Shown: positions 723 through 32,947 of the stretch, piece after piece
Numbering within the stretch: the first letter of the stretch is position 1
Layout: every line of letters starts with the position of its first letter
Source of the DNA: Scatophagus argus
Taxonomy: Eukaryota; Chordata; Actinopteri; Scatophagidae
Direction: 5' to 3'
DNA length: 64,000 bases
Assembly: GCF_020382885.2 (NCBI RefSeq)
Contig: NC_058494.1
Span: forward strand, 27,935,225 to 27,999,224
Program-made: the position numbers and the translations under genes
Notes under the pieces: generated by a model
Databases searched by the model: none
Told to the model about the DNA's origin: nothing
The model's input: only the letters and a program-made list of their open reading frames with translations

Positions 723-1104
723 TACAGGAGGTCTATACTGGGCTTTGACTGCTGTCAGGGTCGTGTCGTTCACCCTCCAGTGTGACAGTCTGACAGGATG
801 TTTCATCTCTGTTGTTCTGTATGTCTCGTTATCACATGTGCTAATATTTAATATTTAATATTTAGCGTTAAACGTTTGGTTTCCTTCAACCTGAGATGTG
901 ATTTCTGCAGGATTTCTTTTGACGCTGTGGACTGTGATTAAAATGCCTAAAGACCGTCTCATTCCAGAGTTCATTGATTAATCTGAGACGGTCAGCTCAG
1001 TCACTCATTCATTTATTCAGCTGTTTGTTCAGTCCTCCATCCATTCAGTCTGTTCATCGAGCACCTGACTGACTGCAGGTCAGCAGGTGCAGCCGGTTAG
1101 CGTT

Positions 1105-1530
1105 TCTTCACCCGTTCACTCACCTGTTCACTCACCCCTTCACTCACCTGTTCACTCACCCCTTCGCTCACCCGTTCACTCACCTGTTCACTCACCCCTT
1201 CACTCACCCGTTCACTCACCCGTTCACTCACCCGTTCACTCACCCCTTCACTCACCTGTTCACTCACCCCTTCACTCACCCGTTCACTCACCTGTTCACT
1301 CACCCCTTCACTCACCCGTTCACTCACCCGTTCACTCACCCGTTCACTCACCTGTTCACTCAGCCCTTCACTCAGCCCTTCACTCACCCCTTCACTCACC
1401 CCTTCACTCACCCCTTCACTCACCCGTTCACTCACCCGTTCACTCACCTGTTCACTCAGCCCTTCACTCAGCCCTTCACTCACCCCTTCACTCACCCCTT
1501 CACTCACCCGTTCACTCACCCGTTCACTCG
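1105..1530 (+). repeat. 12-bp minisatellite, about 35 units
   Basis: The unit is TTCACTCACCYG with variants ending CCCC, CCTG, CCCG or GCCC. Twelve is a multiple of three, so the array stays open in several frames on both strands and gives artefact peptides such as (HSPV/HSPL)n. The variants are ordered: near the 3' half a block with two GCCC units followed by CCCC and CCCG units occurs twice, showing a higher-order duplication. No start context, splice site or homology supports a protein. Confidence 0.9.
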
Positions 1531-1768
1531 GTAACTTCACTCATTTGTCTGCACTTTTATTTCTTTGGTGTGGTTTTCTGGGATCTTTTAATGTACGTAT
1601 CTGAAATAAAATGTGTTAGTGTTATTATTATTCATTCGTGACTGTACATGAGTTCCACGTCAAAAGCTTTTCTAAAAATACACTTAAATAATGACGTCTG
1701 CCAGCTCGTCGACATCCATCAGGATCTGATGCTGACCAATGAAAACCTGCAGCCTGCATGATGCTGCT

Positions 1769-12106: not shown

Positions 12107-15100
12107 TTACCTGCTCTCCTTCAGCAGCAGGCGGAAGTTGTGGAGCTGATATATGCTGGTGGACAACCTGAGAGAGAAAAGCGAGACAAGAAACGTGGCG
12201 TGACGTTCGTGTGTTCGGAATGAGGGGTCGAATCTCCAACTCCATTCAGCTTCTTGTGACAACCCAACCCATTAGCACAAACATTAGCCACTTCCAGCTG
12301 CACTGGTCCACCCAAACTGTTACGGAGCTGCTCAGGCGCAGGTGAAAACTTACCTGCCGAAGGCGTTCAGCAGGGCCACGATCTCCTGCCGGGTCAGCTG
12401 GAAGCCTTTGGAGGGGCTGTGTTCAGGAAGGTTCTGGATCTCCCTCTCAGAGAAGAGGACCTTCAGGGCCGTACCCAGACCCTGAGTCTGCACACGACAC
12501 ACAGGACAACCGTCAAGGAGCTCGACAGGTTCTCTAAATTCAGCAGGTATAACCGCGAACACGGACTCTTCACAGCGTATTCGGTTAGACCGCGTGCAGG
12601 TGGATTTTAAAAAATGGATCACATGGAACCAGTTTAGTGCACACGTCGTTACTGCTGCTCTGTTATTAATGAGATCAATAATCAGAGTGTGGAGCCACAG
12701 CCAAGAGGCTCACCTGCAGCTTCCCCCACAGGCGACATTTACTGCAGCCCACGCAGTCCATGATCCTCGAGATGTTTTTAAAGTGGAGGCGGAACTCCTC
12801 CTGAAAGACACGACGTCCACTTTGGGTTACGCAGCCTTCATACATGACGCGTCCCCAAACAAACACCAGAATAAAAGACACACAGACGGACTCGTCACTG
12901 TTACAACACTTTGGCTTCACCTTTAATGTTTTGGCTTCCATTTTGTGTCCGGCGAACATGGACTTCTCGTCAAAGTGCATGGGGAAAGCTCTGCAGGACA
13001 AAAGGAGCAGTCAGCTTTCTGATCACTTCTTACAAATGAACTGCACAACATGAGAAACTCAAACTCACGTCTGCGTTTAAACACACCTGTGCAAAATAAC
13101 AGGCTTCAAAGGTGCCCCGTTAGTTGTTGTTGTTTTATGTTATTTTCTCAGCACTTTATTTAAAATCATAACCGCTGATCTCTGAATCACGTTGGACAAA
13201 AACAAGTTTTATTTATGTGAAAATTTAAATTCAGAGGAAAGCAGAGGAAAGATGCTGCTAACAGCAGACTAACATGCTAACATGCTAACACTTAACATGT
13301 TGTACCACTATTTAGCATGTTAGCATGCTAACTGTTAGCATCAGACTGGAAAAAGGACTGTCCAGTACAGACCTGAGTAAAAAGTGTTTTTGTTGTATTA
13401 CGACTAAAAGTCTCATTGGGTTTCTAACTTAAGTTTGTTCATTCACTTTTATTGAAAACTTTTCTGTGAAAAACTGATCTGAAGCTCAGTTCTGAGGCTG
13501 TAATAAAACTTAAGGCTACCTCTGCCCACTTCCTCTTGAAGCCACGCCCATATCTGGTTAAGATCCACCCATTGAGTACAAATACATGATGTACTTGGTT
13601 ATTCCTGATTTGAATGTTACTACATTAGGTGTATTATCAATTGATCAATTCTTTGGCTTATACAAAGTCATAAAGAAGTGAAAATTAAAATTTGAAACTG
13701 CAATAAACAAATGAATGTTCCAGCAGTACATGTTAGCATGCTAATGTCCAGCTTGTAGCGCTGTGTGTTCGCACCTTCACTGACCAGCACGCCGGGCTTC
13801 GATTGATTTCATTATCCATAAATCTGCAAATTATTCTCAACATAAATCAATTAATAACTTGTATATAAAATGATAAAAATGTGTGCCAGAGACCAAAGTG
13901 ACGTCTTTAAATTACTGTTAACAGTCCAAGACCCCAGAGACTCTTCACTTATGGTCATAACTTACAGAGAAAACATTTAAGAAGTCGCCAGCAGCAAACG
14001 TTTGACATTTTGGCTTGAAAAATGACAAATGATTAATGAATTATCAATACAGAAGGCAACCACTCTTCTTTCGACTGACTAACTGATTAATCAATTAATT
14101 GTGGCAGCTGTGGTGAGGACTCGTGTCCAAGTTTTTGTCTGCTAGTGAAGAAGACATGAAGCAGATGCTGACATGAACAAATGTGGATGTTTAAGGTTTT
14201 TGGCGACTGAACTGCACTTCTGTTTCATCACGTCTGACCCGAAGGCCTGAAGAACAAACCCGTCTTACTTGATCTCATTGAACAGCTGCAGCAGCAGGTC
14301 CTTGGTGGCCAAGTCCTCCTGACCGTTTCCTGTGTACAAGTTGACAAACGCTCGCTCGAAGTACGGCGCCACCTTGTAGAGCGCGCGCAGCTCGATCAGG
14401 TACAGGAAGTACAGGTTCTTCAGCCGCCGCGTGCCCTCGCCTTTGGTCTCTGCCGTGTCGAAGCGCTGCCGGAACTCCTGAACGTTGGGGCCCCAGACCG
14501 AGCGGCCCCAGCCCTCTGAGGAATCAAACAGCAGCAGCACTTTAGCGCCTGAACTCACGTTTCACGGACTGAATGAGCTTCGGGATGAGCTCGGCGTACC
14601 GTCCAGCAGGTACTGGGCGCACAGGTGGATGTTGATGCTGCTGTGGAGGCCCGAGATGAGTCGGTAGAAAACTCGCTTCTCCAAACACAAACCTGCAGAC
14701 AGGAAGCGGAGAGTCCGCCGTCAGCTCGAAGACGACGAGTTTCGTTTCCACACTGATGGATGTTTTTCATTCATCATCACATCACCAGACTGCATCTCAA
14801 TCAGTTTGTTAAATAAACGTGAGAGAAAAACATCAACGAGGACGTGAGGACGACTTTACCTTCGAGCCACGTGTAGAAACCTTCACCTGCAAGGTGAGAC
14901 ACGACAGCTGATCAGCTTGTCAGCACGCAGATAAAAATAAACTCATGAAGATCGTTTAGTCGTTACTCACCGTCATCGTCTCCTGAACGCAGACAGAGAG
15001 AGAACAAAGCTGTTAGATCTGTGCTATTAATACACACACACACATCACCGAGAATCACTGGAAAATATTATGGGATGTCCACTGATCATAGAAAAACTGA

Positions 15101-15474
15101 CAAAGTTGAACCAAAGGTTATGTTGCGTTTCCTGTGAGGGATTCTGGGTAAAGACGTTGAGGAACAGCCTCCGTCATCAGGCTGAGGTTAAACAGGAAGT
15201 CACATGCCTGCTCTGACTCCCTCAATGGTCTGAGCGTCAGCTGAAACGTTTCAACACTTTGCTTTGAGACTCTGACATAACACATCATAACCTCGTTCAG
15301 ACTGATCTGAGAACAGCAACATGGCCGACAGCTCAGACATCAGCGCCCACCAGGAGTCCTGATGACAAAAAGCTCAAACCAAACTGAGCAGTCAGTGACG
15401 TTCAGGACTCACCTCTGCTCGGAGCCAGAGGGTTCAGAGGCCGGTACACTGATCTGGGCCTGTCCACACACACG

Positions 15475-15515
<41 letters not shown>

Positions 15516-15602
15516 GTCAGAGGTTACAGTGTATATCAGTATGTGTTCTGTCAGACTGCAGAAACACACAAATAAACACACATTCCTACCTACAGCGTGT
15601 GA

Positions 15603-15644
<42 letters not shown>

Positions 15645-16930
15645 CTGTGTGAGTGGTGTGTGTGTCTCACTTGAAGCAGTTCTCCTCATAGATGCTGTTC
15701 CAGACTCTCCAGGCTGAAGGACCCTTGTATCCGGTGTATCGCTCCGGGTTCAGCAGCAGATCCACATACTCAGCATCTGGAGAGGTTTCATCTGACACAC
15801 ACACACAGAAAAGCAGACTATAATGGACTGAACAAAGTGCACGAACAACACGCTGCTCGTTGATCAAACCCCTGCGGGACCTCGTGAGGTCTCATCTGAG
15901 GTAACGGGATCCCAGAGATCGCACGCAAATCCTCCTGTGTGGCTGCAGGGTCGTGAGAACCACCAGGACTCGTCCTGGGGCCTGCAGTGGTTCAGGTCAA
16001 AGAGTGAATCCTCACCGTCCAGCTCACAGAAGTGGTCCTGAGCGTCGTCGTGTCTCGCCCAGTCAGCGAACGCCTCTTTACTCTGGTTACTGAAATAAAG
16101 ATGAATAAATGACCACATGAACATCCTGAAGACTCCAGTCTGAAGGCTGAATTTGAGGTTCAAGTAAACCTGATGGTCCCTCTGGTCTGTTGCCTCCACC
16201 AGCTGAGCAGGTTTTAAAAAACACAGCTTTATCAGATTCTGCTGCCGCCTCCACCCGCGACGAGCCTCCACCCGTGACGAGCCTCCACCTTTACCACGAG
16301 GGCCAGTGAAGTGGGCTGAGAGCAGCAGCTGCTGGTTTATGTTTGACTGCTTCCTGTCAGCTGACGGAGACAACAGGCAGTCAGTCAGTGGCGTCACCTC
16401 AGGGTGCTGTTGATGGCGCCCAGCTCTTTGGCCTGCTCGCACTCCGTCATGTCCGACATTGTGTTGGCTGCCTGCGAGTACTGTGGACAGAAAGACAGAG
16501 AGCGGACGGATGTCACCTCGATCAGACTCTGATTGGCACTCGTTTCCTTCTTTCGCTTTGCTGCAGCTGAGCGAACGCTTCAGCGCAGGCATCATGTGAC
16601 TCTCATGTCTGTCTGTCCGTCAGCGGCTGGTTAGCTTAGCTTAGCACAGAGACAGGAAGCAGGTGCAAACGGCTACTGCGTTCTCTGCTACAGTCGCTGT
16701 GGATGTGGCTTTCAGGTGGATGAGCGTCACTGTGGGCACAGGTTGGTGTTTCCTGTTCTCCACCCGACTGATTTTAACCCTCCTGGCTGACGGTCAGTGA
16801 AACAGACTCGACCTTCACTGAGACGAGTGCAGATGACCAAACATTCCTGCCAGCCAAGAGCTGGCAAACACTCAGTCTCTACATGGAAACTATCAGAGCA
16901 GATAAGCTGAGTGCTGTGAGGGTTTACACA

Positions 16931-16962
<32 letters not shown>

Positions 16963-19900
16963 GCTGATGAGACACAAAGTGCTGGGACAAACACAGCTGG
17001 TCCTGAACTCCATTTGACCAGCAGCTTGTTGTCAGGTCTGAAGTCAGTTCAGCCCTGGGACTGCGTGTCATTAACGAGTCCCACACACTCGGTCCTGCTA
17101 CCACAGACACTCACTAAAGCACCAAGTGGGGATCCCTCCGCTGCTGAAAATAGTCCCAAACAAATGCAGCTGTTTTTAAAAGGAGCGACTGTTGTTATTG
17201 CTGGCTGTAGCTGCAGCTAACGTTAGCTCAGTCATATCATTAGCATCTCTTAGTTGGTACCGTCAGAGCATCAGAGGCGGATCCGAGAGTCTGGTCGCAT
17301 TCAGACTCCTGTTGACGTATTCTTAAGTCTTGTTTACGTTTAAATTATTCAAATTAAAACTGCATTCAAACAAAGTTCCCGTGTTTACTTTGGCTTCAGT
17401 CTAAACTGTTTAACTATTTGTAAGTCAGGCACTCAGAAAAAGACCTTTCAGCTAACGGGACAGGAGCCGTTCGACATGTCGGTCAAAGCCCTGAGCTGCT
17501 GCGATAAACGTGACAACAAAAACTCAAATTTTACGACAATCCGTTGAAGTCCTGTCGCTGACCTGTTGTGTTTCCAGAGCAAAGAAAAACGTGTCGCTCT
17601 CACCTTGTTGTAGTTCCCGGACTTGATGCCCACTGGGATTTTACTCTGTGGAACAAACAAACAGTAAGAGACAGCAGAAAGCACAAACTCTACATCATCT
17701 CAGGACCACAAAACTGTCTCAGCGACTGTTTTCAAGTGGACACATCTCGTTGTTGACCTAAGATCAGTCAGAGACAGCAGGCAGATGTTAAAGCCGCGTC
17801 AGTCAGACTATCATGAAGCAGCTGCTGTTGGTGACCTCTGACCTCTGGACAAGGCTCCACATGGCAGTCTTTGATGGCACAGTGTCCGTCGTCGGGCCAG
17901 AAGGGACACGGTCGCTTCAAGTTCACCTGGAGACAAAAGACATGAGACTCGTGTCTGAGAGATTTCAAGTCCATCACCATCACATAAAGTCAGTTCATCA
18001 CATGAAGCACGGTGTTGACAGACAGGCGTGTCCTGAACCTGTCATGTTAGCATTCGTGTCTGTGATGCTAACGTTAGCTCGGGCAGCTACAGCGCAGAGC
18101 ACGTCCAGCTTTACGTGCTCCCTCGCAGCAGCAGAAACGAGGCTCTGAACGTCACCAGGGGTTTGCAGGGTTCAGGGAAGACGTCTTCCTCTTACTGCAT
18201 CTGTCTGTGGACAGTTTGACTCGTCCTTCCTGTGGCATAACAGCCGCTTCACAGGAACAAAACCATGAGGAAACACTACAGCAGCTGCAGGTGCAGAAGT
18301 GTGTGAGAGGCCGCCTGAAGGAGGCGAACGTCATGCCAACCGCCACCACTGAGAAGGAAGGCAGGAAATCGATTCTGACAGACAAACACATTTTTCAAAA
18401 GCAGACAAACTGGTTTCTGCTTCCTGATTTAAAACAACAAGCACCTGCTCAGCTCAGGCTCAGGCAGAAACAAGGGAGAACAGGCGATTCAGGGCTCGCG
18501 CTGAATTTTCGCCCCTTCACAGACCTAAAGAAGCCTGGAAGGTCATTCGTCCAATCGCTCACTCACGGCGGTGACGGTGAAGCTCTGCCTCGAGTGTAAC
18601 ACTGCGATTACACAACACAAACCAGCAGAATAAACAATGGAGCCAACATGTGCTCACACTGCGGGGCAGAAACCTCCACCGGCAGCAGCTCTCACCCTGT
18701 AGTATCTGAAGTAGTCCTTCTCCGTCAGCTTCTTGATGCGCGGGTAAACCTTGAAGTTGTTGAAGACGTCGATGCTCTCGACGTCGCAGAAGCAGTCGTC
18801 CAGGACTCCTGTGAGCTGCAGCGGAGACAAACAACACGTCAGCAAAGTCCCGTCCAATCACAACAACGCAAACGCAGCTCAGGTGAGCCACCGGGAGAAG
18901 AGTTCAGGGCGGCTCACCGCCGTCTATCAGAGTTCATCAGCTTTGGTCAGCTTTTCATTTCAGCCTTTCCTGTTCCACACTGCTGTAAACGGGGCTCAGA
19001 CCTTGACGTTCTGTCATGTTACACGTTAAAGGACCGTTTCATAAGAGTAACTGGAAGTTGGAGCGAGTTTTTAGATGACGAGATTTAGTTACTTTGCACA
19101 TTCAGATTATGAGTAAGAAACATGAACACTGTTACATATTACTACGATTAGAAACACTGATATTTAAATCAATCTTATGGCTGAAATCCACCCTGTGTAT
19201 TTTCTTGGCTATGATTATTTTCTTGAAAACCACATTCATTTTACTGACACAAAGTTTAAGTTGACTCATTAAAACGCCCGACAGTCCAAACCCCAAAGAC
19301 ACTCGGTCTGCTGGGAGTTTTGTCCTCGTGGCTTAAAAAGACTCAACTGATGAAGTGACAAATCCCTTCAGCTTTAAAGTAAATATGTTAAGACTTTACG
19401 TGACCACCCAGCAGACGACACGCCTCACGTTCTGCTGAGGAGTCACTCAGAGCGTATTCACAGCTTTGTTATCCGTCGGGTCTCTTTTGGATAAATTTGC
19501 ATTTGGCTGCTGTGAAGCGACCGCGTCTTTAGCCGTGTTTACATTAACAGAAGACATTTTAACTGAAAACCGGTCACTGACAACCAACAGAAACAACGCT
19601 GTCACGTCCCGATGATTTCTGAGGATGTTACCAGAGAGGAACTGGGAGATTCATTATTTACAATTAACTGTTAACAGAAGGCCAACTGAACCTGCACAAA
19701 TGAGAAACTCGTTAACAGGACGAGCGTACGTGTGCTCAATTAGGTTTCCACTAATCTGAGTCTGAACTTCCCTTTCAAACACAGAAGTTCCTATTTCACC
19801 AACATTTAGTGCCAAAATGCAGTTTTTTTCTGCAGAGGGAATTCCTGAATACACAAAATCACGTAAACATGTAAAATAAAGTGCACCAAATTTAGATTAG

Positions 19901-21190
19901 AGCACATTCAATGAGACTAAGTGGACGGAGCCAACTCATTCTGGTATTTCTGATACTGTACCAAGTGCGGAATTCGTCAGAAACACCTGGACGGACTCAA
20001 ACGCATCACATGAACCAAACCACAGCTGACCTCTGACTGTAGCAGTCCGCCGAGAGCCAGGACAGGCAGGAGGAGGCCGATTCCCCTCAGCATGTCGCTT
20101 TTCTCTCGCGCTCCTCTTCACTGTGCTTTAAAACTAAAACTTCCTCTCAGCAAACGTTGGGCCTGCAGCTCTTGTCTGCGGGCTGAGCTGTCACTACAGA
20201 CACCCAGTCCCATGCCCGCCCGGGGACACGCCTCCAAACAACAGGCTGTCAAGCTAAACCCCGCCCCTCCAAGTTTGTAGTCCTCTTCCTGGTTAAACGT
20301 CGTTAGGAGCGCCTGTTGTTTGCGGCTGTAAAGACTACAACTCCCACGAGAGGACAAGAGGCGGGAGCTCCGCCGCAGCCAATCACAGGACACCACGCTT
20401 TTCTACTCTCCAGCGGCGATAATAGCAATTCGGCTTCAAGGCGTGTAGTTTTACACGTTCATCGTCAATACTGTGTAAGCTTCGAAACAACGTTAATATT
20501 CAACACACCAAGAGAAGGAAGTTGGTTAGTTGAAATCAGGAGCAACCCAGTAAAATGTTTTAAAACAAATAAATAAGGTGACAGTAATGAATGTCAATTG
20601 TAAAATATCATATTCAGCTAATAAGTCTCACTTGAAAACTCAAAACGGTTTTCATAACCGCCACACAGACAAAAATAAACACAGTGGACATTTCACTGTT
20701 TATACGTGCCGTTTTCAGCTTCGAACACCTTACTGACAGAAAAGTGAAAAAATTTGTTTTTTTTTTTTTAAAAAAACCCCACACAATGTGACTTATACAC
20801 ACACACAGACACACACACGGAGAGCACTGCTGCTGCTAGCTAGCATCACACACGGTGACGTCAAATTAAGACGACAGTAGAAAATGCTAGAAGATTTCCT
20901 GAATGGTGACTGTTGTCGTGTCGTGTCGCTTCGTTTAAAGCTCCAAGTTAAATTACAAAATCCGCAACAACAACATCGTGTTGACTTTACGGTTGCACAA
21001 GCACAGCGCCGGGGCGACTTACATGGCAGAAGCAGCTCTGGTCCTGGCTGTCTGGAGCTCTGCTCGGATGTTGTTGGCTCTGCTGCGTTTGAGGTTTTAC
21101 GTTGTTTTGTTGAAACCAGCCCAGAACAAAGTTCCCGAAGAACCAGGCCAACAACACAGCGCAGAACGCTCGTAAAGTTACTTTCCACAT
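12107..21190 (-). CDS. ero1b: ERO1-like protein beta, ER oxidoreductase
   Basis: An ER-lumen flavoenzyme that reoxidises protein disulfide isomerase and passes electrons to oxygen, making H2O2. Exons in transcript order: first exon 21023-21190 or 20031-20093, then 18696-18815, 17843-17926, 17604-17645, 16398-16480, 16016-16089, 15671-15791, 15413-15459, 14971-14982, 14860-14886, 14600-14692, 14269-14515, 12921-12990, 12714-12800, 12354-12487, 12107-12167 (TAA). Phases close, giving 454 residues with the short start or 489 with the long one. Visible motifs are the regulatory cysteines in [10 protein letters not shown]...CHVEPC (exon 3) and the active site CVGCSKC (CxxC, about residues 380-383 of the short form). 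FAD-fold blocks are [36 protein letters not shown] and [34 protein letters not shown] and the KGFQ block match ERO1B rather than ERO1A. Two exons are only 12 and 27 bases. It runs convergent to gpr137b. Confidence 0.95.
12260..12330 (+). other. Short last intron of ero1b
   Basis: The intron between the last two coding exons spans 12168-12353. It reads open on the minus strand for about 64 codons, but the exon junction (GGCAG|GTTGTCC across the splice) restores the conserved [12 protein letters not shown]-terminus, so it is treated as an intron. Confidence 0.6.
13258..13335. repeat. TTAGCATGCTAA-type palindromic repeat cluster
   Basis: ACATGCTAAC is repeated in tandem and then appears inverted as GTTAGCATGC. 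The cluster lies in an ero1b intron. A related cluster is at 57218-57270 in tp53bp2, and single GTTAGC/GCTAAC units are scattered through the window (for example 3620-3700). Confidence 0.7.
14860..14982 (-). other. ero1b: Two consecutive ero1b microexons (12 and 27 nt)
   Basis: Exon 14971-14982 is 12 nt and exon 14860-14886 is 27 nt, each with AG before and GT after on the minus strand. Together they restore the block [16 protein letters not shown], matching vertebrate ERO1B (SRGEDDGESFYTW). Without them the flanking exons still join in frame (39 nt lost), removing the acidic linker before the conserved FYTWLEG. Confidence 0.85.
15460..15670 (-). other. ero1b: ero1b intron 7 bounded by AC and GU repeats
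   Basis: In the transcript this 211-nt intron has a long AC repeat soon after the donor (plus strand 15605-15643) and a GU repeat directly before the acceptor (plus strand 15465-15512). The acceptor reads GU repeat then GGACAG and has no pyrimidine tract. The two repeats are complementary and can pair, bringing both splice sites together. Confidence 0.8.
16931..16964 (+). repeat. GT microsatellite in an ero1b intron
   Basis: About 17 GT units within the intron between ero1b exons 4 and 5; it reads as CA in the transcript. Confidence 0.9.
20031..20093 (-). CDS. ero1b: ero1b alternative first exon, short (1b)
   Basis: ATG plus 21 codons encode [19 protein letters not shown], then SE, a clean signal peptide. 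The exon ends in phase 0 at a GT donor (GAG|GTCAGC) and splices to exon 2 to give [11 protein letters not shown]. This resembles mammalian ERO1B, where the signal peptide runs straight into TGVLDDC. It lies about 0.93 kb inside the longer alternative. Confidence 0.7.
21023..21190 (-). CDS. ero1b: ero1b alternative first exon, long with CxC (1a)
   Basis: ATG plus 56 codons, starting [20 protein letters not shown] (a hydrophobic signal or anchor segment), then a Q/S-rich linker and the end DQSCFCH. A strong donor follows (CAT|GTAAGT) in phase 0. Joined to exon 2 it gives [14 protein letters not shown], with cysteines at positions 1, 3, 12 and 14. That is exactly the spacing in ERO1A (CFCQ-VSGYLDDCTC). 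The short first exon lacks this pair. Usage of either exon cannot be told from the sequence. Confidence 0.75.
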
Positions 21191-21330
21191 CACTCACTGT
21201 GCCGGTAGAGCTCCAGGGGGAACAAAAAAGAGCCCGGAAACACCGAGACTTCGGTCAGCTCAGCCTGTTCGGCGAGTCGGCGGCTACGGTAGCTTCGGGC
21301 TAGCTGAAGTTAGCATCCGCAGGCTACAGT
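21191..21330 (-). promoter_or_regulatory. Candidate ero1b promoter / 5' UTR
   Basis: CpG-rich sequence directly upstream of the long first exon on the minus strand. No TATA box is clear. Inferred from position and base composition only. Confidence 0.35.
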
Positions 21331-22260
21331 GGCTCTAGAAATCTGAGCGGCTGGGTGAAGTGAGCAGCCCGGTGTTCGAATACCTTCACACGGACGTTTA
21401 AGGTTCTGCCGCCTCTAACAGAACCGGGGTCACTGTTTACAGACGGCAAGTAACTCGGGAAGTTCTCATCCACCAGCGTCCACCAATTTACTGTCAAGTT
21501 AGCAAAACAAAAAGTAGTTTTATTTCCGGTTACAATCTTCAAGATAAAATGCCCGCGATAATTTGCAGTAAATGGATAAAAAAAATCCCACAGAAACAAA
21601 ATGGTGGAAAGCCTTCCCAGAAGAGTGGAAGCTGTTAAAGCTGCAAAGCTGTCTGTGTTTTCAGAATGTCTCAAGGGGTCAGGTGTCCCATTACGTTTGT
21701 CTATACAGTGTATTTTATTTTGAAAGTGGGTTGGATGGGTTTCCCTCTGTTAGAGGTTAGAAGGAGGAGATTTTGAGGGGGGAGATTTTCTTAAGGCCAT
21801 GGACAAACTGCAGCTCCTTCCTTCTTTCTCTGATTCAGTAGGAGCTACAGGAAAGAAGCAAATACTGTGAGAAGGTTTGAACTTTACAGGACAAACAGCA
21901 GAACTACAGACTGACTGTCAGACGGATGCAGAGCTGTAGAGGACTGTGAACTTACTGTTGACCTGCTGACTTTAAAATACATTCTGTGGGACTGACCTCT
22001 TTTTGAGAAACCTGGCTGCAGAAGAACTCACACAGCAGAGGAAAAGAGAAAAGATCGTCACAGACATTAAACTTATCCTGTGCCAAATGTATGTTATTCT
22101 AATCACATGTAAACCTGCAGGAGGAGACACATCCTCACAAACAGAAGTGCAGGAAGAGGCGGAGCAGCACTGGACAGCTTCAACGTCACATCACTGAAAT
22201 GAAACCTAAACTGTCAGAGCTGCAGTCAAGACGAGTTTCTGTGTTTCTGACTGAAGAAGT

Positions 22261-22308
22261 AATGAACTGAGTTCATCAGGTTTTTCTCAGCAACTGACGA
22301 AAACACTG
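22261..22308 (+). other. 5' UTR exon end of the first TRIM gene
   Basis: The sequence ends GAAAACACTG|GTGAGTGC, a strong donor, and the acceptor TTCTCAG lies at 22529-22535, ten bases before the TRIM start codon. The same GCAAACACTG|GTGAGT junction precedes the second TRIM gene at 28271. The upstream limit of the exon is not visible. Confidence 0.65.
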
Positions 22309-22544
22309 GTGAGTGCAGCTGATAATATTTAAGGTGAATGCACACAAAACTTACAGCACCAATCAAACAGGAAGTTACATTTTTTATTGTGTAATGACAT
22401 GTCAGAGAGAAATCTCAGTTAGACGGACCCATAAAATGTAAAGTTTTAAAATTGCTGTAATCATACTTTGACATTTTTATAAAAATGATATAAAGGTATG
22501 TACCAAAACATGTCATACTTTACGTTTGTTCTCAGTGTGCAGAT

Positions 22545-24185
22545 ATGTTTGCTGCCAGCAGTCTGCTGTCTGAAGACCAGTTTCTGTGCTCCATCTGTCG
22601 GGATGTCTTCACTGATCCAGTCACCACATCATGTGGACACAACTTCTGCAAAACCTGCATCACTGAGCACTGGAACACCAATGATAGGTGCCGATGTCCC
22701 ATGTGTAAACGGGTTTTCACCACCAGGCCCGACTTAAAGGTCAACACCTTCATCTCTGAGATGGTTGCTAAGTTCAGACAGTCAGCTCAACAGGAAGCCA
22801 GCAGCAGCTCAGAGCAAGAAGTTTCCAATCCAGGAGAAGTTCCCTGTGACATCTGCACTAGAACCAAACTGAAGGCCCTGAAGTCCTGCCTGGTGTGTCT
22901 GGTCTCCTACTGTGAGACTCACCTGGAGCCTCACCTGACATTGTCAGGCCTGAAAAGACATCAGCTGATTGACCCTGTGGAGAACCTGGAAGACAGGATG
23001 TGTAAGCAGCATGATAAACCTCTGGAGCTCTTCTGTAAGACCGACCAGATGTGTGTCTGCACTCACTGTCCTGCTTTAGACCACAAGACACATGAAGTTG
23101 TTCCTCTGAAAGAAGGATATGAAGAAAAGAAGGCAAAGCTGGGGAAGACAAACACTGAACTTCAGCAGATGATCCAGGAGAGACGACTGAAGATTCAGGA
23201 GGTCAAACACTCAATGAAGCTCAGTAAGCGAAATGCACACATGGAGGTAGCAGAAGGTGTTCGGGTCTTCACTTCTGTGAAGGAGTCTGTGGAGAGAAGC
23301 CTGAAAAAGCTCATCGATGGAATCCAGGAGAAACAAAGAACGACACAGAAACAGGACGAAGGCTTCATCAAACTGCTTGAACAGGAAATCTCTGAGTTGA
23401 TGAAGAGAAGCACTGAGGTGGAGCAGATCTCAAACTCTGAAGACCACGTCCATCTTCTCCAAAGATTCCCATCTCTGAAGGTTGTCCCTCCCACTATGGA
23501 CTGGTCAGATGTCAGTGTCCCTCCAGCATCCTATGATGGGACTGTGACGAGAGCTTTGGTTCAGCTGGAGGAGACACTCAGTGAACGGACGAAGAAGCTT
23601 CTCGCTGAGGCTGAGCTGAAGAGGGTCCAGCAGTATGCAGTGGACGTGACTCTGGATCCTGACACGGCACATCCTGAACTCATCCTGTCTGATGATGAGA
23701 AACAAGTGACTCATGGTGATGTGAACCATCTTCCGAACAACCCAGAGAGATTTTCTCATTATAATTTTCTTTTAGGAAAGCAGAGTATCTCTTCTGGCAG
23801 ATTTTACTTTGAAGTTCAGGTCAAAGGGAAGTCTAAGTGGAATCTGGGAGTGGTCAGAGAGTCGATAGACAGGAAGGGAGAAGTTACAATGAGACCTGAG
23901 AAGGGTTACTGGACAATATGGCTGAGAAATGGAACTGAGTACAAAGCTTTTGATGACCCTCCAGTCCGTCTCTCTCTGAAGTCTCAGCCCCAGAAGGTGG
24001 GGGTGTTTGTGGATTATGAGGAGGGTCTGGTCTCCTTTTATGATGCAGAAGATGCAGCTCTGATCTTCTCCTTTACTGGCTGCTCCTTCACTGAGAAACT
24101 CTTCCCATTCCTTAGTCCCTGTAGGAATGATGGTGGTAGAAACTCTGCACCTCTCATCATCTGTCCAGTCAATCAAACTGTCTGA
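22545..24185 (+). CDS. Bloodthirsty/TRIM39-like E3 ubiquitin ligase, copy A
   Basis: A single coding exon of 546 residues. Order: RING (C15, C18, C30, H32, C35, C38, C51, C54), a B-box1-like zinc motif near 99-140, B-box 2 at about 150-188, a coiled coil at about 190-330, and PRY-SPRY from about 363 to the end. This is a full-length TRIM of class IV. The intronless ORF, the opening MFAASSLLSEDQFLCSIC and the SPRY opening DVTLDPDTAHP are typical of the expanded fish btr family; the family's members act in ubiquitylation, several in innate immunity and one in red-cell development. Compared with copy B, the usual PCGH of the RING is SCGH and the CxxCLD position is CRD, so ligase activity could differ. 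The 3' UTR begins almost at once in an antisense Tc1 remnant. A function for this copy is not known. Confidence 0.9.
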   Translation: MFAASSLLSEDQFLCSICRDVFTDPVTTSCGHNFCKTCITEHWNTNDRCRCPMCKRVFTTRPDLKVNTFISEMVAKFRQSAQQEASSSSEQEVSNPGEVPCDICTRTKLKALKSCLVCLVSYCETHLEPHLTLSGLKRHQLIDPVENLEDRMCKQHDKPLELFCKTDQMCVCTHCPALDHKTHEVVPLKEGYEEKKAKLGKTNTELQQMIQERRLKIQEVKHSMKLSKRNAHMEVAEGVRVFTSVKESVERSLKKLIDGIQEKQRTTQKQDEGFIKLLEQEISELMKRSTEVEQISNSEDHVHLLQRFPSLKVVPPTMDWSDVSVPPASYDGTVTRALVQLEETLSERTKKLLAEAELKRVQQYAVDVTLDPDTAHPELILSDDEKQVTHGDVNHLPNNPERFSHYNFLLGKQSISSGRFYFEVQVKGKSKWNLGVVRESIDRKGEVTMRPEKGYWTIWLRNGTEYKAFDDPPVRLSLKSQPQKVGVFVDYEEGLVSFYDAEDAALIFSFTGCSFTEKLFPFLSPCRNDGGRNSAPLIICPVNQTV

Positions 24186-24753: not shown

Positions 24754-26210
24754 AGAATCAGAATCAGAATTATCTTTATTGCCATGTAAGTGAAGAGGTT
24801 TCACATTACTAAGAATTTGTCTTGGTGATTGGTGCACATATAGAGCATAAGAACAAGTAACATATAATAACAGAGTAAATTAAAATAAAATAGAATAAGG
24901 TAAAACAAAATAAAATAAGATAAGTAAAATAAATATGGTTCTGGAGGTAGTACAAAAGTGAGGTAGTACAGGGTGGAAGTATAGTGCAAGTAGGTGAGGT
25001 AAACAGTGCAAATGAACAGCAGGTGGATCATGACATGAGCAGAAATCAGTTCCTGTACTGAAGTAACTAAAGTGCAGAGCAGCATGTTAGTCAGTTGGTG
25101 TTCAACAGTCCAACAGCACAGGGGAAGAAGATGTTCTTGTGGCGTGAGGTTTTGGTCCGAATGGACCATAACCTCCTGCCTGAAGGGAGTTTCTCAAAGA
25201 GTCCATGTCCAGGGTGAGAAGGGTCAGCTGTGATCCGACCTGCACGCCTCAGAGTCCTGGAGGTGTACAGGTCTCTGAGAGATGGAAGGTTGCAACCGAT
25301 CACCTTCTCAGCAGAGCGCACAGCACGCTGCAGTCTGTGCTTGTCCCTGGCGGTGGCCCCAGCGTACCACACAGTGATGGAGGAGGTGAGGATGGACTCA
25401 ATGATGGCCGTGTAGAACTGAACCACCATCTTGGTTGGCACCTTGCGTTTCCTCAGCTGCCGCAGGAAGAACATCCTCTGCTGGGCCCTTTTGATGAGGG
25501 ACCATCAGCTCCCACTTGAGGTCCCGGGTGATGGTGGTACCCAGGAAGCAGAACGAGTCCACCGTGGAGATGGGGGTGTCTGTCAAGGTGAGGGGGAGCG
25601 ATGGAGCTGGCACTTTCCGAAAGTCAATGATCATCTCCACTGTCTTCTGGGCGTTCAGCTCCAGGTGGTTGTTGTTACCGCACCAGGACACCAGACGGTC
25701 CACCTCCCTCCTGTAGGCGGACTCATCCCCGTCCGAGATGAGACCGATGAGGGTGGTGTCGTCTGCAAACTTAATCAGCTTGACAGACTGGTGGCTGGAG
25801 GTGCAGCAGTTGGTGTAGATGGAGAAGAGCAGAGGGGAAAGTACACAGCCCTGGGGGGTCGGTGCTGATGGTGCGGGTGTCCGAGACATTCTTCACCAGC
25901 CTCACATGCTGTTTCCTGTCTGTCAGGAAGTCAGTGATCCACAGGCAGGTGGGGTCAGGCACGTTCAGCAGGGACAGCTTGTCCTGGAGGAGAGCTGGGC
26001 GGATCGTATTGAAAGCAGAGCTGAAGTCCAAGATCCTAACGTAGGTTCCCAGGGAGTCCAGATGCCGCAGGATGAAGTGTAGAGTCAAGTTGGCTGCATC
26101 GTCTACAGACCTGTTGGCTCTGTAGGCAAACTGCAGGGGGTCCAGGAGGGGGGTTGTGATGGACTTGAGGTGGGACAGAACCAGGCGCTCAAATGACTTC
26201 ATGACTACAC
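24754..26210 (-). mobile_element. 5'-truncated non-LTR retrotransposon (L2/Rex-like)
   Basis: On the minus strand from about 26205, the reverse transcriptase reads QFAYRANRSVDDA, then LDFSSAFNTI (palm), PQGCVLSPLLFSIYTN and the catalytic FADD box (LIKFADDTTLI), then the thumb-side block LRQLRKRKVPTKM. At least two frameshifts (near 25860 and 25490) break it. The endonuclease part is missing. The 3' end has AATAAA and three ATTCTG units, as in tails of fish L2/Rex-like elements. The exact clade cannot be fixed by eye. Confidence 0.88.
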
Positions 26211-26336: not shown

Positions 26337-26705
26337 GGGGCGGCACGGTGGTGCAGTGGTTAGCACTGTCGCCTCATAGCAAGAGGGTTCCAGGTTCGAA
26401 TCCCGGTCTGGGCCCTTCTATGTGGAGTTTGCATGTTCTCCTTGTGCCTGCGTGGGTTTTCTCCGGGTTCTCCGGCTTCCTCCCACAATCCCAAAAACAT
26501 GCTCATTAGGTTAATTGGCTACTCTAAATTGCCCCCTAGGTGTGACTGTGAGGGTGTGTGGTTGTTTGTCTTTGTGTGTTGGCCCTGCGATTGACTGGCG
26601 ACCAGTCCAGGGTGAACCCCGCCTCTCGCCCGTAGTCAGCTGGGATAGGCTCCAGCTCCCCACGACCCTGAGGGATAAGTGGTATAGAAAATGGATGGAT
26701 GGATG
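26337..26705 (+). mobile_element. tRNA-derived SINE with intact target duplication
   Basis: The head carries RNA polymerase III boxes: A box near TGGTGCAGTGGTTAGCACT and B box GGTTCGAATCC. The body is the common fish sequence with GGGTTTTCTCCGGGTTCTCC and GGCGACCAGTCCAGGGTG, and the tail ends in ATGG repeats. A perfect 12-bp target-site duplication GAAGTACTAGGA flanks it (26325-26336 and 26706-26717), so the insertion is fairly recent. A second copy is at 58959-59283. Confidence 0.9.
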
Positions 26706-28271: not shown

Positions 28272-31200
28272 GTGAGTACAGAAGTCAGACTTCTAAAATA
28301 TAAGCTTTGTCTCGACCACCTGTCCTGCTTTGGCACATACAACACATGGGGCTATGCAAATGTGGAGTGTTATATTGTGTTTCTGTTGTTGTTTACAGAA
28401 AACTTCGATTCTTGTGACACTTGTCAAAAAGACAGTTCTGTTATCATAAATGTAGAAGCGTATTTTGAGTATACTCAATATAGGAAAAGAAATCTGTAAA
28501 ATAACCAAAGAAGTACTGGCAGCTCATTACTGGGACTTTGTCCCGTAACCAAAAAACTGAAATTTTCTGTTAATTACAGAACACAGAAGAAATTCAGAAT
28601 GAATTCTACAGTATAAAAACTCAAAGTTGTTCATAAATGCACAAAGTAAAAAAAAATGTAATCGGACTTTGTACTATACATAAAAAATGAAGAATGTCTG
28701 CTAACTTATGTTTTTTCTACAGTAACATGACATTTTTTCAATATGTTACCTAAAGTAATTTTAAAAAATACTTTACTATTGGGTAACTTAAAAAAATCAA
28801 ACGAATCTTCTGTGATAAAAACATATTTTTTCACTAACTTAAAGACCTTTCACAATTTTGTAAAAATGCTGAAGTAAAATACAAAGTCGCAATCCCAAAG
28901 AGTTAACGTTTGCTAATTTATTACTTTTTCTCGCTACCAATACAAAAAACGACTTTACAACAATCACACTCAATGATGAAATTATTGCAAAACTTGCAAG
29001 GGAAAAGGGATGGAGAGGTTTGCTTCTCGTCTGCAGGTGAGATGAAGTCTGTTAAACAAATAGTAAAATATTTTACTGAACTTCACTGACATACAGGAGG
29101 GCCAAAACAACAAAAAACTCTGGGGAAATAATCAGCTTACTGTTTGTTGAAGAAGTGGTATCAATCTTCTCAGTCAGAGAAAATGTCTTGAGCCATCATC
29201 ACTCTTTTTTAATGATATTATTTAGGGGATACTACAACATGTTTGAAAAAAACCTGCACTGTATTCATTCCTGTGCATTTGTCAAGTACGCGCTTCAAAG
29301 CTCTTTATGGAGGATGACAAGGTGATCTGGCCAGGCACTCAACAAGGAAATGAATGCAGCACAGAATAATACTTAAAATACTTTTCAGTATCAGCCGGAG
29401 AGTCGCTGAGCCTGCTTTCTGGAAAGTGTGAATGGTGCAAGCAGGTTGGAATGCGTAGGCCACGTGCTGTAATTCCCCGGCCCTGTGATTTCCCAGCATG
29501 GGATCAATAAAGTAAATCTATCTATCTAGACAAGCGGGACTCTTGTCAACTTTGCAGATTTATTTTTCAGATTCTGAAAATCATTTTCAGTCATGAATGA
29601 TTTTCATTGTAATTGACAGCAAAATGGAAGATGTAGCTAGTCCTGGATTAGAAGATTTTCAACCTCCAGAAAATACTGCTTAACACCATAATTGAAGACA
29701 TATTTAAAGTTTTACTTCCTGCTTGCTATATTAATTTCCTTATTAAACTGCCTGGCAAGGCAAAGCCTAACACTTTGAAACCCCCTCTAGATGAACACAC
29801 AGGAATGAGTACAGTCTGGGCTTTTTTCTCAATTTGTAATACCCTAAATAATACATCTCAATAGTTTACATTTTCAAAGACAATTGGACATTATTCCTTT
29901 AACTTTCCATACATAAATGGCGGTAAACAAAATCCCCCAAAAAACCCAATATTACATTACAACTTTGAAAGCACAGGGATGCGTTTACGATTGAACAGCA
30001 GTTTCTAAGGCTGTAAGGAAATTACTAGTTTTAACACATGCTAACATTACACTCGAGACAGAGTGAGTAGGTGAGAAACATAGCTCGAGATGACTTACCA
30101 TTTGAAGAGCTGAGTGTTTCCCTGGAGGTGAGGACTTGGCCTTGTAAAGCTCTAGGCGCCATCTTGGAAAGGCAGTGCTAGCTTCTGTAACGTTAGGCAA
30201 AACAGAAGAAAAGAAATATCTAAATCAACACACCATATGTTAAATGATGCATTGATTTTTTCAAATTAAATTTAAAATAAAGTAAATCTCCTCTTTCTGA
30301 ACTCAAGCAGTCAGTTTGCCTCAAATAAATAATTTGCACTTGGCATACACCATACCAATGAACTAGAAAAACATTTGAACATATAAAATCATTTGACTTG
30401 ACCTGACTTAAGTTGTAAAATTTAAACATGTTTGAGTATGATGGGATTAAGCTTTTCAAAAGACACCTAGCTTATGTTTTGTTAGCTGAACACAACGTCT
30501 TCTCGCGACCAAACAACACAACGGTCAAGAACGTAAAGTTTTAGCTAATGTTAGCTACTTACGTAAATGCTAAGAAAACTGCAACTTCTTCAAGAGCTCC
30601 AAAAAGTAATTACCGTTTACAATCAAAATGGAGCTGGAGGAGGTTAACCTTGTCAGTTCACAGCTAGTGGTTGACAGACACGCACAGTGGAGATGGAGGG
30701 TATTGTTTCACGTGTGAGCTCCTGCTTCCATTAAAAATACTGGCCATAGAATCTTAAATTCCCAGATGCTGACCAACTGTCACAAAGGCTGAGGCAGGAT
30801 GGAGTAACCAAATAACATAACAGGTGATTATTTGTGTTGATCTAGCATAACAAAAATCTCTACAAAGCTGCTGAGTTTGTAAGGAAAAAATAAATTCTTT
30901 AATATCCCAAACCAAGTGATGGCTAATAACTTAGGATAAAGCTGTGAACAAAAGCAGATGTTATTTCTTTTTAAATTTACATTATTAATTCCAAGCTGGG
31001 AAATTACTTCATCATTATTCAACAAATATTCACAGTCATACTTTAAGTATACACGACCAACTGCTGAGGCATCATTCATACAGATGAACTTTATGGACCA
31101 TTTGTGAAGAATTCTTTCACCACAGCTTTTTTTTAAATTGTATTCTCAGTGTTTAGATATGTTTTCCACATCTATACAATTTAAAGTTTTAAAATCGCTG

Positions 31201-31273
31201 TAATCATACTTTGATATTTTTATAAAAGTGATATAAAGGTACCAATAATGTTATACTTTACGTTTGTTCTCAG
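28272..31273 (+). other. Long 5' UTR intron of TRIM copy B
   Basis: No coding exon is seen. It is AT-rich and holds a LINE 3' tail (29430-29528). The last 95 bases before the acceptor are homologous to the intron of copy A (22438-22535), so the duplication included intron sequence. Confidence 0.55.
29430..29528 (+). mobile_element. LINE 3'-end fragment with TCTA tail
   Basis: It ends GGGATCAATAAAGTAAATC followed by TATCTATC units. The same ending (GGGATCAATAAAGTATATC plus TATC units) is at 60985. Only the 3' tail is recognisable. Confidence 0.65.
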
Positions 31274-31282
31274 TGTGCAGAT

Positions 31283-32947
31283 ATGTTTGCTGCCAGCAGT
31301 CTGCCATCTGAAGACCAGTTTCTGTGCTCCATCTGTCTGGATGTCTTCACTGATCCAGTCACCATACCATGTGGACACAACTTCTGCAAAACCTGCATCA
31401 CTGAGCACTGGGACCATCATGATCAGTACTTGTGTCCCATGTGTAAAAAGGTTTTCAACACAAGACCTGAGCTGTACATCAACACCTTCATCTCTGAGAT
31501 GGTTGCTCAGTTCAGACAGTCAGCTCAACAGGAAGCCAGCAGCAGCTCAGAGGAACAAGTTTTCAAACTAGCAGAGGTTCCTTGTGACGTCTGCACTGAA
31601 ACCAAACTGAAGGCCCTGAAGTCCTGCCTGGTGTGTCTGGTCTCCTACTGTGAGACTCACCTGGAGCCTCACCTGACAGCTGCAGGCCTGAAAAGACATC
31701 AGCTGATTGACCCTGTGGAGAACCTGGAAGACAGGATGTGTAAGCAGCACGATAAACCTCTGGAGCTCTTCTGTAAGACCGACCAGATGTGTGTCTGCAC
31801 TCACTGTCCTGCTTCAGACCACAAGACACATGAAGTTGTTCCTCTGAAAGAAGGATATGAAGAAAAGAAGGCAAAGCTGAGGAAGACAAACACTGAACTT
31901 CAGCAGATGATCCAGGAGAGACGACTGAAGATTCAGGAGGTCAAACACTCAGTGGAGCTCAGTAAGGAAGGTGCAGACAGAGAGACAGCAGAAGGTGTTC
32001 AGGTCTTCACTGCTCTAAAGGAGTGTGTTGACAGAAGCCTGGACGAGTTCATCAAGACGATAGAAAAGAAGCAGAAAGCAACAGAAAAACAGGCAGACAT
32101 TTTCATCAAAGATCTGGAACAGGAAATCTCTGAGCTGAAGAAGAGAAGCTCTGAGGTGGAGCAGATCTCACAGTCTGAAGACCACGTCCATCTTCTCCAA
32201 AGCTTCCCATCTCTGAAGGTTGTCCCTCCCACTATGGACTGGTCAGATGTCAGTGTCCCTCCAGCATCCTATGATGGGACTGTGACGAGAGCTTTGGTTC
32301 AGCTGGAGGAGACACTCAGTGAACGGACGAAGAAGCTTCTCGCTGAGGCTGAGCTGAAGAGGGTCCAGCAGTATGCAGTGGACGTGACTCTGGATCCTGA
32401 CACAGCACATCCCAGTCTTGTCCTGTCTGATGATGGGAAACAAGTGACTCACGGTCATGTAAGGAAAAATCTCCCAGACAACCCAAAGAGATTTTCTTAC
32501 TGTGTTTTTGTTTTAGGAAAGCAGAGTTTCTCTTCAGGCAGATTTTACTTTGAGGTTCAGGTCAAAGGGAAGACAGCGTGGAATCTGGGAGTGGTCAGAG
32601 AGTCGGTAGACAGGAAGAGACTAATCCCACTGAGCCCTCAGAAGGGTTACAGGGCAATATGGCTGAGAAATGGAGCTGAGTATGAGGCTCTTGCTGACCC
32701 TCCAGTCCGTCTCTCTCTGAAGTCTCAGCCCCAGAAGGTGGGGGTGTTTGTGGATTATGAGGAGGGTCTGGTCTCCTTTTATGATGCAGAAGATGCAGCT
32801 CTGATCTTCTCCTTTACTGGCTGCTCCTTCACTGAGAAACTCTTCCCGTACTTCAGTCCTGATCTTAACCATGGTGGTAGAAACTCTGCACCTCTGGTCA
32901 TCTGTCCTGTCAGTCACACTGATGATATTCAAATGGAAAGACTGTGA
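31283..32947 (+). CDS. Bloodthirsty/TRIM39-like E3 ubiquitin ligase, copy B
   Basis: A single coding exon of 554 residues with the same architecture as copy A: RING (C15 to C54, with the usual CLD and PCGH), B-box1-like motif, B-box 2, coiled coil and PRY-SPRY from about residue 363. It is eight residues longer because the C-terminal end differs (SHTDDIQMERL). The coding sequence is a mosaic relative to copy A: a 199-base block (32205-32403) is identical by eye to 23467-23665, and the B-box region is nearly so, while the middle of the coiled coil (31965-32094) and parts of the RING and SPRY differ at many codons. The likely role is ubiquitin ligation with SPRY-based target binding; the target is unknown. 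Confidence 0.9.
   Translation: MFAASSLPSEDQFLCSICLDVFTDPVTIPCGHNFCKTCITEHWDHHDQYLCPMCKKVFNTRPELYINTFISEMVAQFRQSAQQEASSSSEEQVFKLAEVPCDVCTETKLKALKSCLVCLVSYCETHLEPHLTAAGLKRHQLIDPVENLEDRMCKQHDKPLELFCKTDQMCVCTHCPASDHKTHEVVPLKEGYEEKKAKLRKTNTELQQMIQERRLKIQEVKHSVELSKEGADRETAEGVQVFTALKECVDRSLDEFIKTIEKKQKATEKQADIFIKDLEQEISELKKRSSEVEQISQSEDHVHLLQSFPSLKVVPPTMDWSDVSVPPASYDGTVTRALVQLEETLSERTKKLLAEAELKRVQQYAVDVTLDPDTAHPSLVLSDDGKQVTHGHVRKNLPDNPKRFSYCVFVLGKQSFSSGRFYFEVQVKGKTAWNLGVVRESVDRKRLIPLSPQKGYRAIWLRNGAEYEALADPPVRLSLKSQPQKVGVFVDYEEGLVSFYDAEDAALIFSFTGCSFTEKLFPYFSPDLNHGGRNSAPLVICPVSHTDDIQMERL

Follow-up and report, generated by a model that had tools for sequence, protein, structure and literature searches.

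The ero1b locus of this fish raises the question of whether a single gene can switch an ERO1A-type N-terminal cysteine pair on or off by choosing between two first exons, as the first-pass annotation had proposed. Within the window, by which we mean the whole 64,000-nucleotide stretch analysed, the minus strand holds an intact 16-exon ERO1B-type gene running from 21190 to 12107, its 16 coding exons assembled from donor and acceptor signals and protein continuity. The frame is open with either first exon through to a TAA ending at 12107, giving a long form of 489 aa and a short form of 454 aa that have 433 residues in common. Judging by the sequence, we lean towards the view that both starts exist and are in use, the short one under the control of stress.

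The enzyme body is encoded by exons 2-16, which with their introns occupy 12107..18815 (minus strand), stay open to the TAA, and carry the PF04137 ERO1 domain. The Pfam match is significant for both forms (E 1.9e-125 for the long, 1.6e-125 for the short) and covers profile positions 1-353 of 354; the nearest solved structures are those of human ERO1A, 3ahq and 3ahr. The shuttle pair CxxxxC is present, with long-form C112/C117 aligning with ERO1A 94/99, as is the inner CxxCxxC, where C412/C415/C418 align with ERO1A 391/394/397. Domain and cysteines point to a member of the ERO1 family with a predicted FAD-dependent PDI oxidase activity. The inner active site (12714-12800, minus strand) reads CSKC in both the long and the short form, as against CFKC in human ERO1A and CDKC in human ERO1B, and the residue between the inner-site cysteines has been linked to activity (PMC3971451).

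The two candidate first exons lie upstream of exon 2 (18696..18815, minus strand), which is common to both forms, ends in YYR, and starts in phase 0 at 18815, where the acceptor ctgcag is followed by CTCACAGGAGTC, translated as LTGV. The long first coding exon (21023..21190, minus strand) has 56 codons. It opens with a hydrophobic leader, whose best 10 residues average a hydropathy of 2.54, and continues through a polar linker to SCFCH, ending in TGC TTC TGC CAT before the phase-0 donor gtaagt. An in-frame stop lies two codons above its ATG, so the frame cannot run further upstream within that exon. The short first coding exon (20031..20093, minus strand) has 21 codons, a leader with a best 10-residue mean hydropathy of 2.75, and a TCA GAG end before the phase-0 donor gtcagc. 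Both join exon 2 in phase 0, and the coordinates given for them earlier are exact: on the minus strand, the long ATG has its A at 21190 and the short exon finishes with base 20031. The spliced translations bear out the proposal that two phase-0 first exons fit exon 2, with frames open over 489 and 454 aa, and that the short one supplies a leader without CxC. The description of both donors as good holds for the long exon (5.10 bits, sixth of 16) but is generous for the short one, whose weak donor has a C at +3 and scores 2.28 bits, 13th of 16, on a vertebrate donor matrix. Among the donors accepted for this gene the lowest score is 1.64 bits, and that of exon 3, which also starts with gtcag, reaches 1.94 bits. 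These observations support a pair of first exons that both fit exon 2 and differ in whether they carry an ERO1A-type cysteine pair.

Two other readings of this stretch were considered and rejected. A repeat search over 18600-22500 turned up 13 families of direct repeats, each 12-16 nt, but nothing of exon length that would make one first exon a duplicate of the other. A 139-codon plus-strand ORF over the long exon (20884-21303), a candidate antisense gene, had no Pfam match when 20881-21300 was tested, and we judge it to be a shadow ORF.

For the cysteine map, we aligned the long form to 3ahq and anchored the ERO1A numbering by setting the first aligned Cys to 35; with that anchor, 94, 99, 104, 131, 394, and 397 match the positions given in PMC3971451. 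At 104, 131, and 166 the 3ahq construct carries Ala, so the regulatory partners were assigned from their positions and from PMC3971451 rather than from matching letters. Long-form C53, C55, C64, and C66 align with ERO1A 35, 37, 46, and 48, which confirms the ERO1A cysteine spacing claimed for the long exon. In the ERO1A structure, Cys35-Cys48 and Cys37-Cys46 are structural disulfides, and the long form matches these pairs by position, the bonds themselves being predicted. The equivalents of Cys35 and Cys37 are in the long exon and those of Cys46 and Cys48 in exon 2; neither form therefore lacks the Cys46 equivalent, and exon choice affects just the Cys35 and Cys37 equivalents. Cys35, 37, and 46 are given as the ERO1A cysteines that vertebrate Ero1 does not conserve throughout (PMC3971451).

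Elsewhere in the alignment, long-form C284 (short-form C249) occupies the position of ERO1B Cys262, where ERO1A has Ser263, so that a Cys stands in place of the ERO1A Ser. By this residue the sequence is ERO1B-like, Cys262 being an ERO1B isoform-specific cysteine, and the marker is not absolute, with Xenopus tropicalis ERO1B carrying Ser there (PMC3971451) and cone-snail Ero1 carrying Cys (PMC6275033). An N-terminal cysteine pair, which human ERO1B lacks, is absent from the short form and present in the long form. We take Q34 of human ERO1B to correspond to E21 of the short form. On that correspondence, the last residue of the short leader is the one with which mature human ERO1B, expressed as Q34-R467, begins (PMC6238587).

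Chance is a poor account of the long exon. We shuffled 21700-18816 6000 times with local composition kept and collected ATG exons that end in phase 0 at a donor scoring 1.6 bits or more, finding 0.89 candidates per region and 0.145 signal-like candidates per region. C-x-C-x at the junction arose in 3 of 6000 shuffles, CFC-x in 0 of 6000, and CxC with a signal-like leader in 0 of 6000; in a stricter run (2000 shuffles of 22000-18817, donor 2.5 bits) the CxC rate was 0.0015, and neither CFC nor CxC with a leader appeared. Across the whole window and both strands, 1 of 106 candidates ends in C-x-C-x, and it is the long exon. The length of the frame is less telling: when the long-exon region was shuffled 3000 times, an ATG frame of 56 codons or longer turned up in 920 cases. 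As a package, the long exon is well beyond chance.

These rates bear on the reading that the short exon alone is used, as in mammals, and that the upstream one, whether relic or chance frame, is no longer transcribed. Codon usage favours it: on a score trained on the shared exons versus introns, the long exon lies at -0.35 bits per codon, which is not coding-like and is matched by 13 of 37 open noncoding windows, while the short exon scores +0.21 and the shared exons, which are the training set, 0.28 to 0.94. Unusual codon choice is common in exons for signal peptides, which is an excuse for such a score and not evidence for the exon. That human ERO1B lacks the pair would also fit sole use of the short exon (PMC6275033). 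Against it, the frame, the leader, the 5.10-bit donor, and the exact CFC placement are all intact, a combination of CxC and leader that no shuffle reproduced, and in a relic one would expect some of these features to be gone.

The DNA above the long exon points both ways. Its CpG profile lends mild support to a putative promoter or leader, P1, at 21191..21550 (minus strand): in 300-nt windows, CpG observed/expected is 0.84 at 21001-21300 and 0.91 at 21201-21500, both with GC 0.56, and 0.08 at 21601-21900. The CpG-retaining stretch spans the long exon and reaches about 21.5 kb, ending 0.3-0.4 kb above the long ATG, which further argues against a silent upstream exon. This support is only mild because the depleted side, with near-identical TRIM copies and a LINE-type fragment, may be methylated repeat-rich DNA. 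A motif scan of 19800-22200 recognised no strong or core element at P1, which counts for the short exon alone, and one CCAAT at 21483-21487 was the only scan motif within 0.5 kb above the long ATG. Weighing these points, we regard sole use of the short exon as unlikely.

The short leader exon presents the opposite case, for its sequence is by itself weak evidence. At least one signal-like candidate was present in 677 of 6000 shuffles, so the short exon sequence is not beyond chance. Besides the long and the short exon, the real region holds one more candidate, 20691-20632, and each of the three is signal-like. This third phase-0 exon (minus strand) lies between the other two, with a gtgaga donor of 3.6 bits and a TATAAA just 7 nt above its ATG; promoter evidence for it was none, and we judge it probably a chance frame. 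Its occurrence within the same 2.9 kb indicates that such exons can appear without evident promoter support.

What lies above the short ATG speaks more strongly for it. Independent evidence for a second start comes most strongly from a feature absent from the first-pass annotation, a candidate stress element, a perfect ERSE of the form CCAAT-N9-CCACG (CCAAT-CACAGGACA-CCACG; 20379..20397, plus strand, the gene being on the minus), which is unique in the 64 kb and lies 0.29 kb upstream of the short ATG (20093). The window has 1 such element against 0.06 expected; one arose in 14 of 300 whole-window shuffles and, when the local 701 nt were shuffled 20000 times, in 22. A motif nearby, ACTACAACTCCC (20334..20345, plus strand), which we take to be the ZNF143 core, also occurs once in the window, against 0.02 expected and 10 of 300 window shuffles. 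The two fell within 100 nt of each other in 0 of 300 window shuffles; both were spotted by eye and tested afterwards, so these rates are after the fact. Two GC boxes, GGGCGG, follow on the minus strand (20261-20266 and 20216-20221) within the putative short-exon promoter, P2. The scan of 19800-22200 gave no ERSE-II, UPRE, AARE, NRF1, ETS, YY1, or TATA match. A perfect CRE palindrome, TGACGTCA, is found at 20856-20863, in intron 1 of the long form.

The makeup above the short exon is that of a predicted CpG-type promoter, ATF6- or XBP1s-responsive and positioned for that exon. Because the unique ERSE and the ZNF143-type site lie upstream of the short ATG, the short form without CxC probably has its own UPR-responsive promoter. 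Such a predicted stress promoter fits the known induction of ERO1B and of fish ero1b: ERO1B is induced by XBP1s and ATF6alpha (PMC3971451), mouse Ero1lb is up in two ER-stress models (PMC3174197), and ero1b is up in amberjack under heat stress and marine heatwaves (PMC12249142) and, along with other UPR genes, in E. maclovinus (PMC6146603). The short-form leader would also contain a 31-codon upstream ORF (20118..20213, minus strand) with a strong start context, GCGGGCATGGG, if transcription starts above 20213. This ORF stops 24 nt before the short ATG and is a possible brake on short-form translation under that condition, although transcription could also begin below the start of the ORF, given the GC boxes immediately above 20213.

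The same motifs could be read differently, with the upstream promoter and the long exon alone in use. The ERSE/ZNF143 cluster would then be an enhancer of P1 located in intron 1, and the short ORF, in that same intron, a leader-like frame arisen by chance. In favour of this reading are the ability of ERSEs to act in both orientations, the 13th-ranked short donor, the 677 of 6000 shuffles with a signal-like phase-0 exon, and the third such exon at 20691-20632. Spacing tells against it, since the ERSE, the ZNF143-type site, and the GC boxes lie 0.12-0.30 kb above the short ATG, as core-promoter elements would, and about 0.8-1.0 kb below the long ATG. By the Q34 correspondence, the short leader also ends where the mature human ERO1B construct starts. 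We consider exclusive use of the long exon quite improbable.

If both starts are used, the gene would have two promoters to choose from, and the coding first exon belonging to each would be joined through one phase-0 junction to a common 433-residue body. P1 would yield the 489-aa form, in which C53/C55 would bond C64/C66 in the ERO1A pattern, pinning the N-terminus to the body. P2 would yield the 454-aa form, with NF-Y and ATF6/XBP1s acting on the ERSE to switch it on during ER stress. In this short form, C29 and C31 would be without those partners and might be free, bonded to each other, or engaged in linking molecules; ERO1B dimerisation is reportedly the subject of one paper. ER stress would then shift the enzyme from an older, closed N-terminus to an ERO1B-like one. 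The earlier interpretation, that promoter choice could set the N-terminal disulfides of one enzyme, is supported in part, by two compatible exons with and without the pair and by the second-start promoter signals (ERSE, ZNF143-type site, and GC boxes).

Both starts might instead serve tissue or developmental expression, with the N-terminal pair structurally neutral, a reading that overlaps our own. Alternative promoters often serve expression only. Moreover, the loose control of ERO1B has been ascribed in part to the inner-site Asp394 (PMC3971451). Yet the two exons differ precisely in the cysteines of the ERO1A structural disulfides, and CSKC is common to both forms, so the inner-site residue cannot tell them apart. 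We hold a purely expressional role to be possible though doubtful. A more far-reaching version, which we think less likely than not, goes beyond our preferred reading: promoter choice in one fish gene would toggle between an ancestral ERO1A-like and an ERO1B-like N-terminus, an ERSE-driven swap under stress to a more loosely regulated form without N-terminal disulfides, and the mammalian alpha/beta difference at the N-terminus would have come about by loss of a first exon and not by change within an exon.

The first-pass annotation had also suggested that a single fish gene may combine features of two mammalian paralogues. The long form does have both traits, C53/C55 plus C284, which is the same combination as in Conus Ero1, but the reading as a mixture is probably wrong, since mollusc Ero1 already has both (PMC6275033). 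Conus geographus Ero1 carries the N-terminal pair and Cys262, and its authors note traits of both human isoforms (PMC6275033). Because mollusc Ero1, outside the vertebrate alpha/beta split, has the same combination, the long exon is probably a retained ancestral first exon. The short exon would then be an ERO1B-specific start, a simpler reading than a mixture of paralogues, and on a parsimonious view it arose together with the stress promoter inside the first intron in the ERO1B lineage. To our knowledge, the short exon is the only known start in mammals, and we infer that they retained it alone.

Two TRIM genes (RING, B-box, coiled coil, and PRY-SPRY) at 22431-24180 and 31174-32921 (plus strand) are 90% identical over 1759 nt, the nearer of them (22431-24180) standing head to head with ero1b, and a reverse transcriptase RVT_1 fragment, probably LINE, lies between the copies at 25401-25892 (minus strand). 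A 163-nt repeat piece at 26338-26500 recurs inverted at 59130-59283 with 92% identity, and 1069-1638 (plus strand) is an evident tandem repeat with repetitive translations of the SPVHSPLHS type on the plus and the SERVSEGV type on the minus strand. The reading frame at 2209-2712, convergent with ero1b, is presumably GPR137-like and had no Pfam match. These neighbours, the TRIM pair upstream and the convergent frame, agree with a fish source. Rfam returned nothing at the gathering threshold in the window. Pattern searches for relatives gave 1 match in viral contigs and 237 in prokaryote genomes, none of them confirmed, as expected.

Alternative first exons are well known as a kind. Among the matches listed from the open-licence PMC literature, judged by titles and abstract starts, we found no alternative ERO1B starts and no ERSE-driven alternative first exons, nor, within the same scope, any precedent for the toggling of paralogue-distinguishing ERO1 cysteines by a first exon. 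The cause of the looser regulation of human ERO1B relative to ERO1A is described as unsettled, the regulatory disulfides appearing the same and other features being invoked (PMC3971451). If both starts are used, the fish gene would offer a natural pair of forms that have all 433 residues of the body in common and diverge solely at the N-terminus, chiefly in the cysteine pair, so that the role of the pair would be directly testable. A paralogue-specific trait would, if this is true, be set by a first-exon switch and placed under the unfolded protein response.

Compared with human ERO1A (3ahq/3ahr), the long form has the same CxC-x8-CxC N-terminus, aligned residue for residue, and the same shuttle (94, 99) and inner-site (391, 394, 397) cysteines, but 280 of 441 residues aligned to the 3ahq construct are identical, Cys284 stands where ERO1A has Ser263, and there is a second start without CxC. 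With human ERO1B, the gene shares the Cys262 equivalent, a short form that begins at the mature ERO1B start (by the Q34 correspondence; PMC6238587), and the UPR induction of the gene (PMC3971451); it differs in having CSKC rather than CDKC at the inner site and an additional upstream coding exon, with an N-terminal pair that is absent in human ERO1B (PMC6275033). Conus geographus Ero1 X1/X2 resemble the long form in having the N-terminal pair and Cys262, but the two Conus sequences differ from each other at seven residues, and section 2.1 of PMC6275033 describes no alternative N-terminus. Hspa5, Sdf2l1, and Creld2 likewise have an ERSE or ERSE-like promoter element (PMC6393527, PMC3174197), whereas the ERSE here would serve an internal second promoter that alters the N-terminus of the protein.
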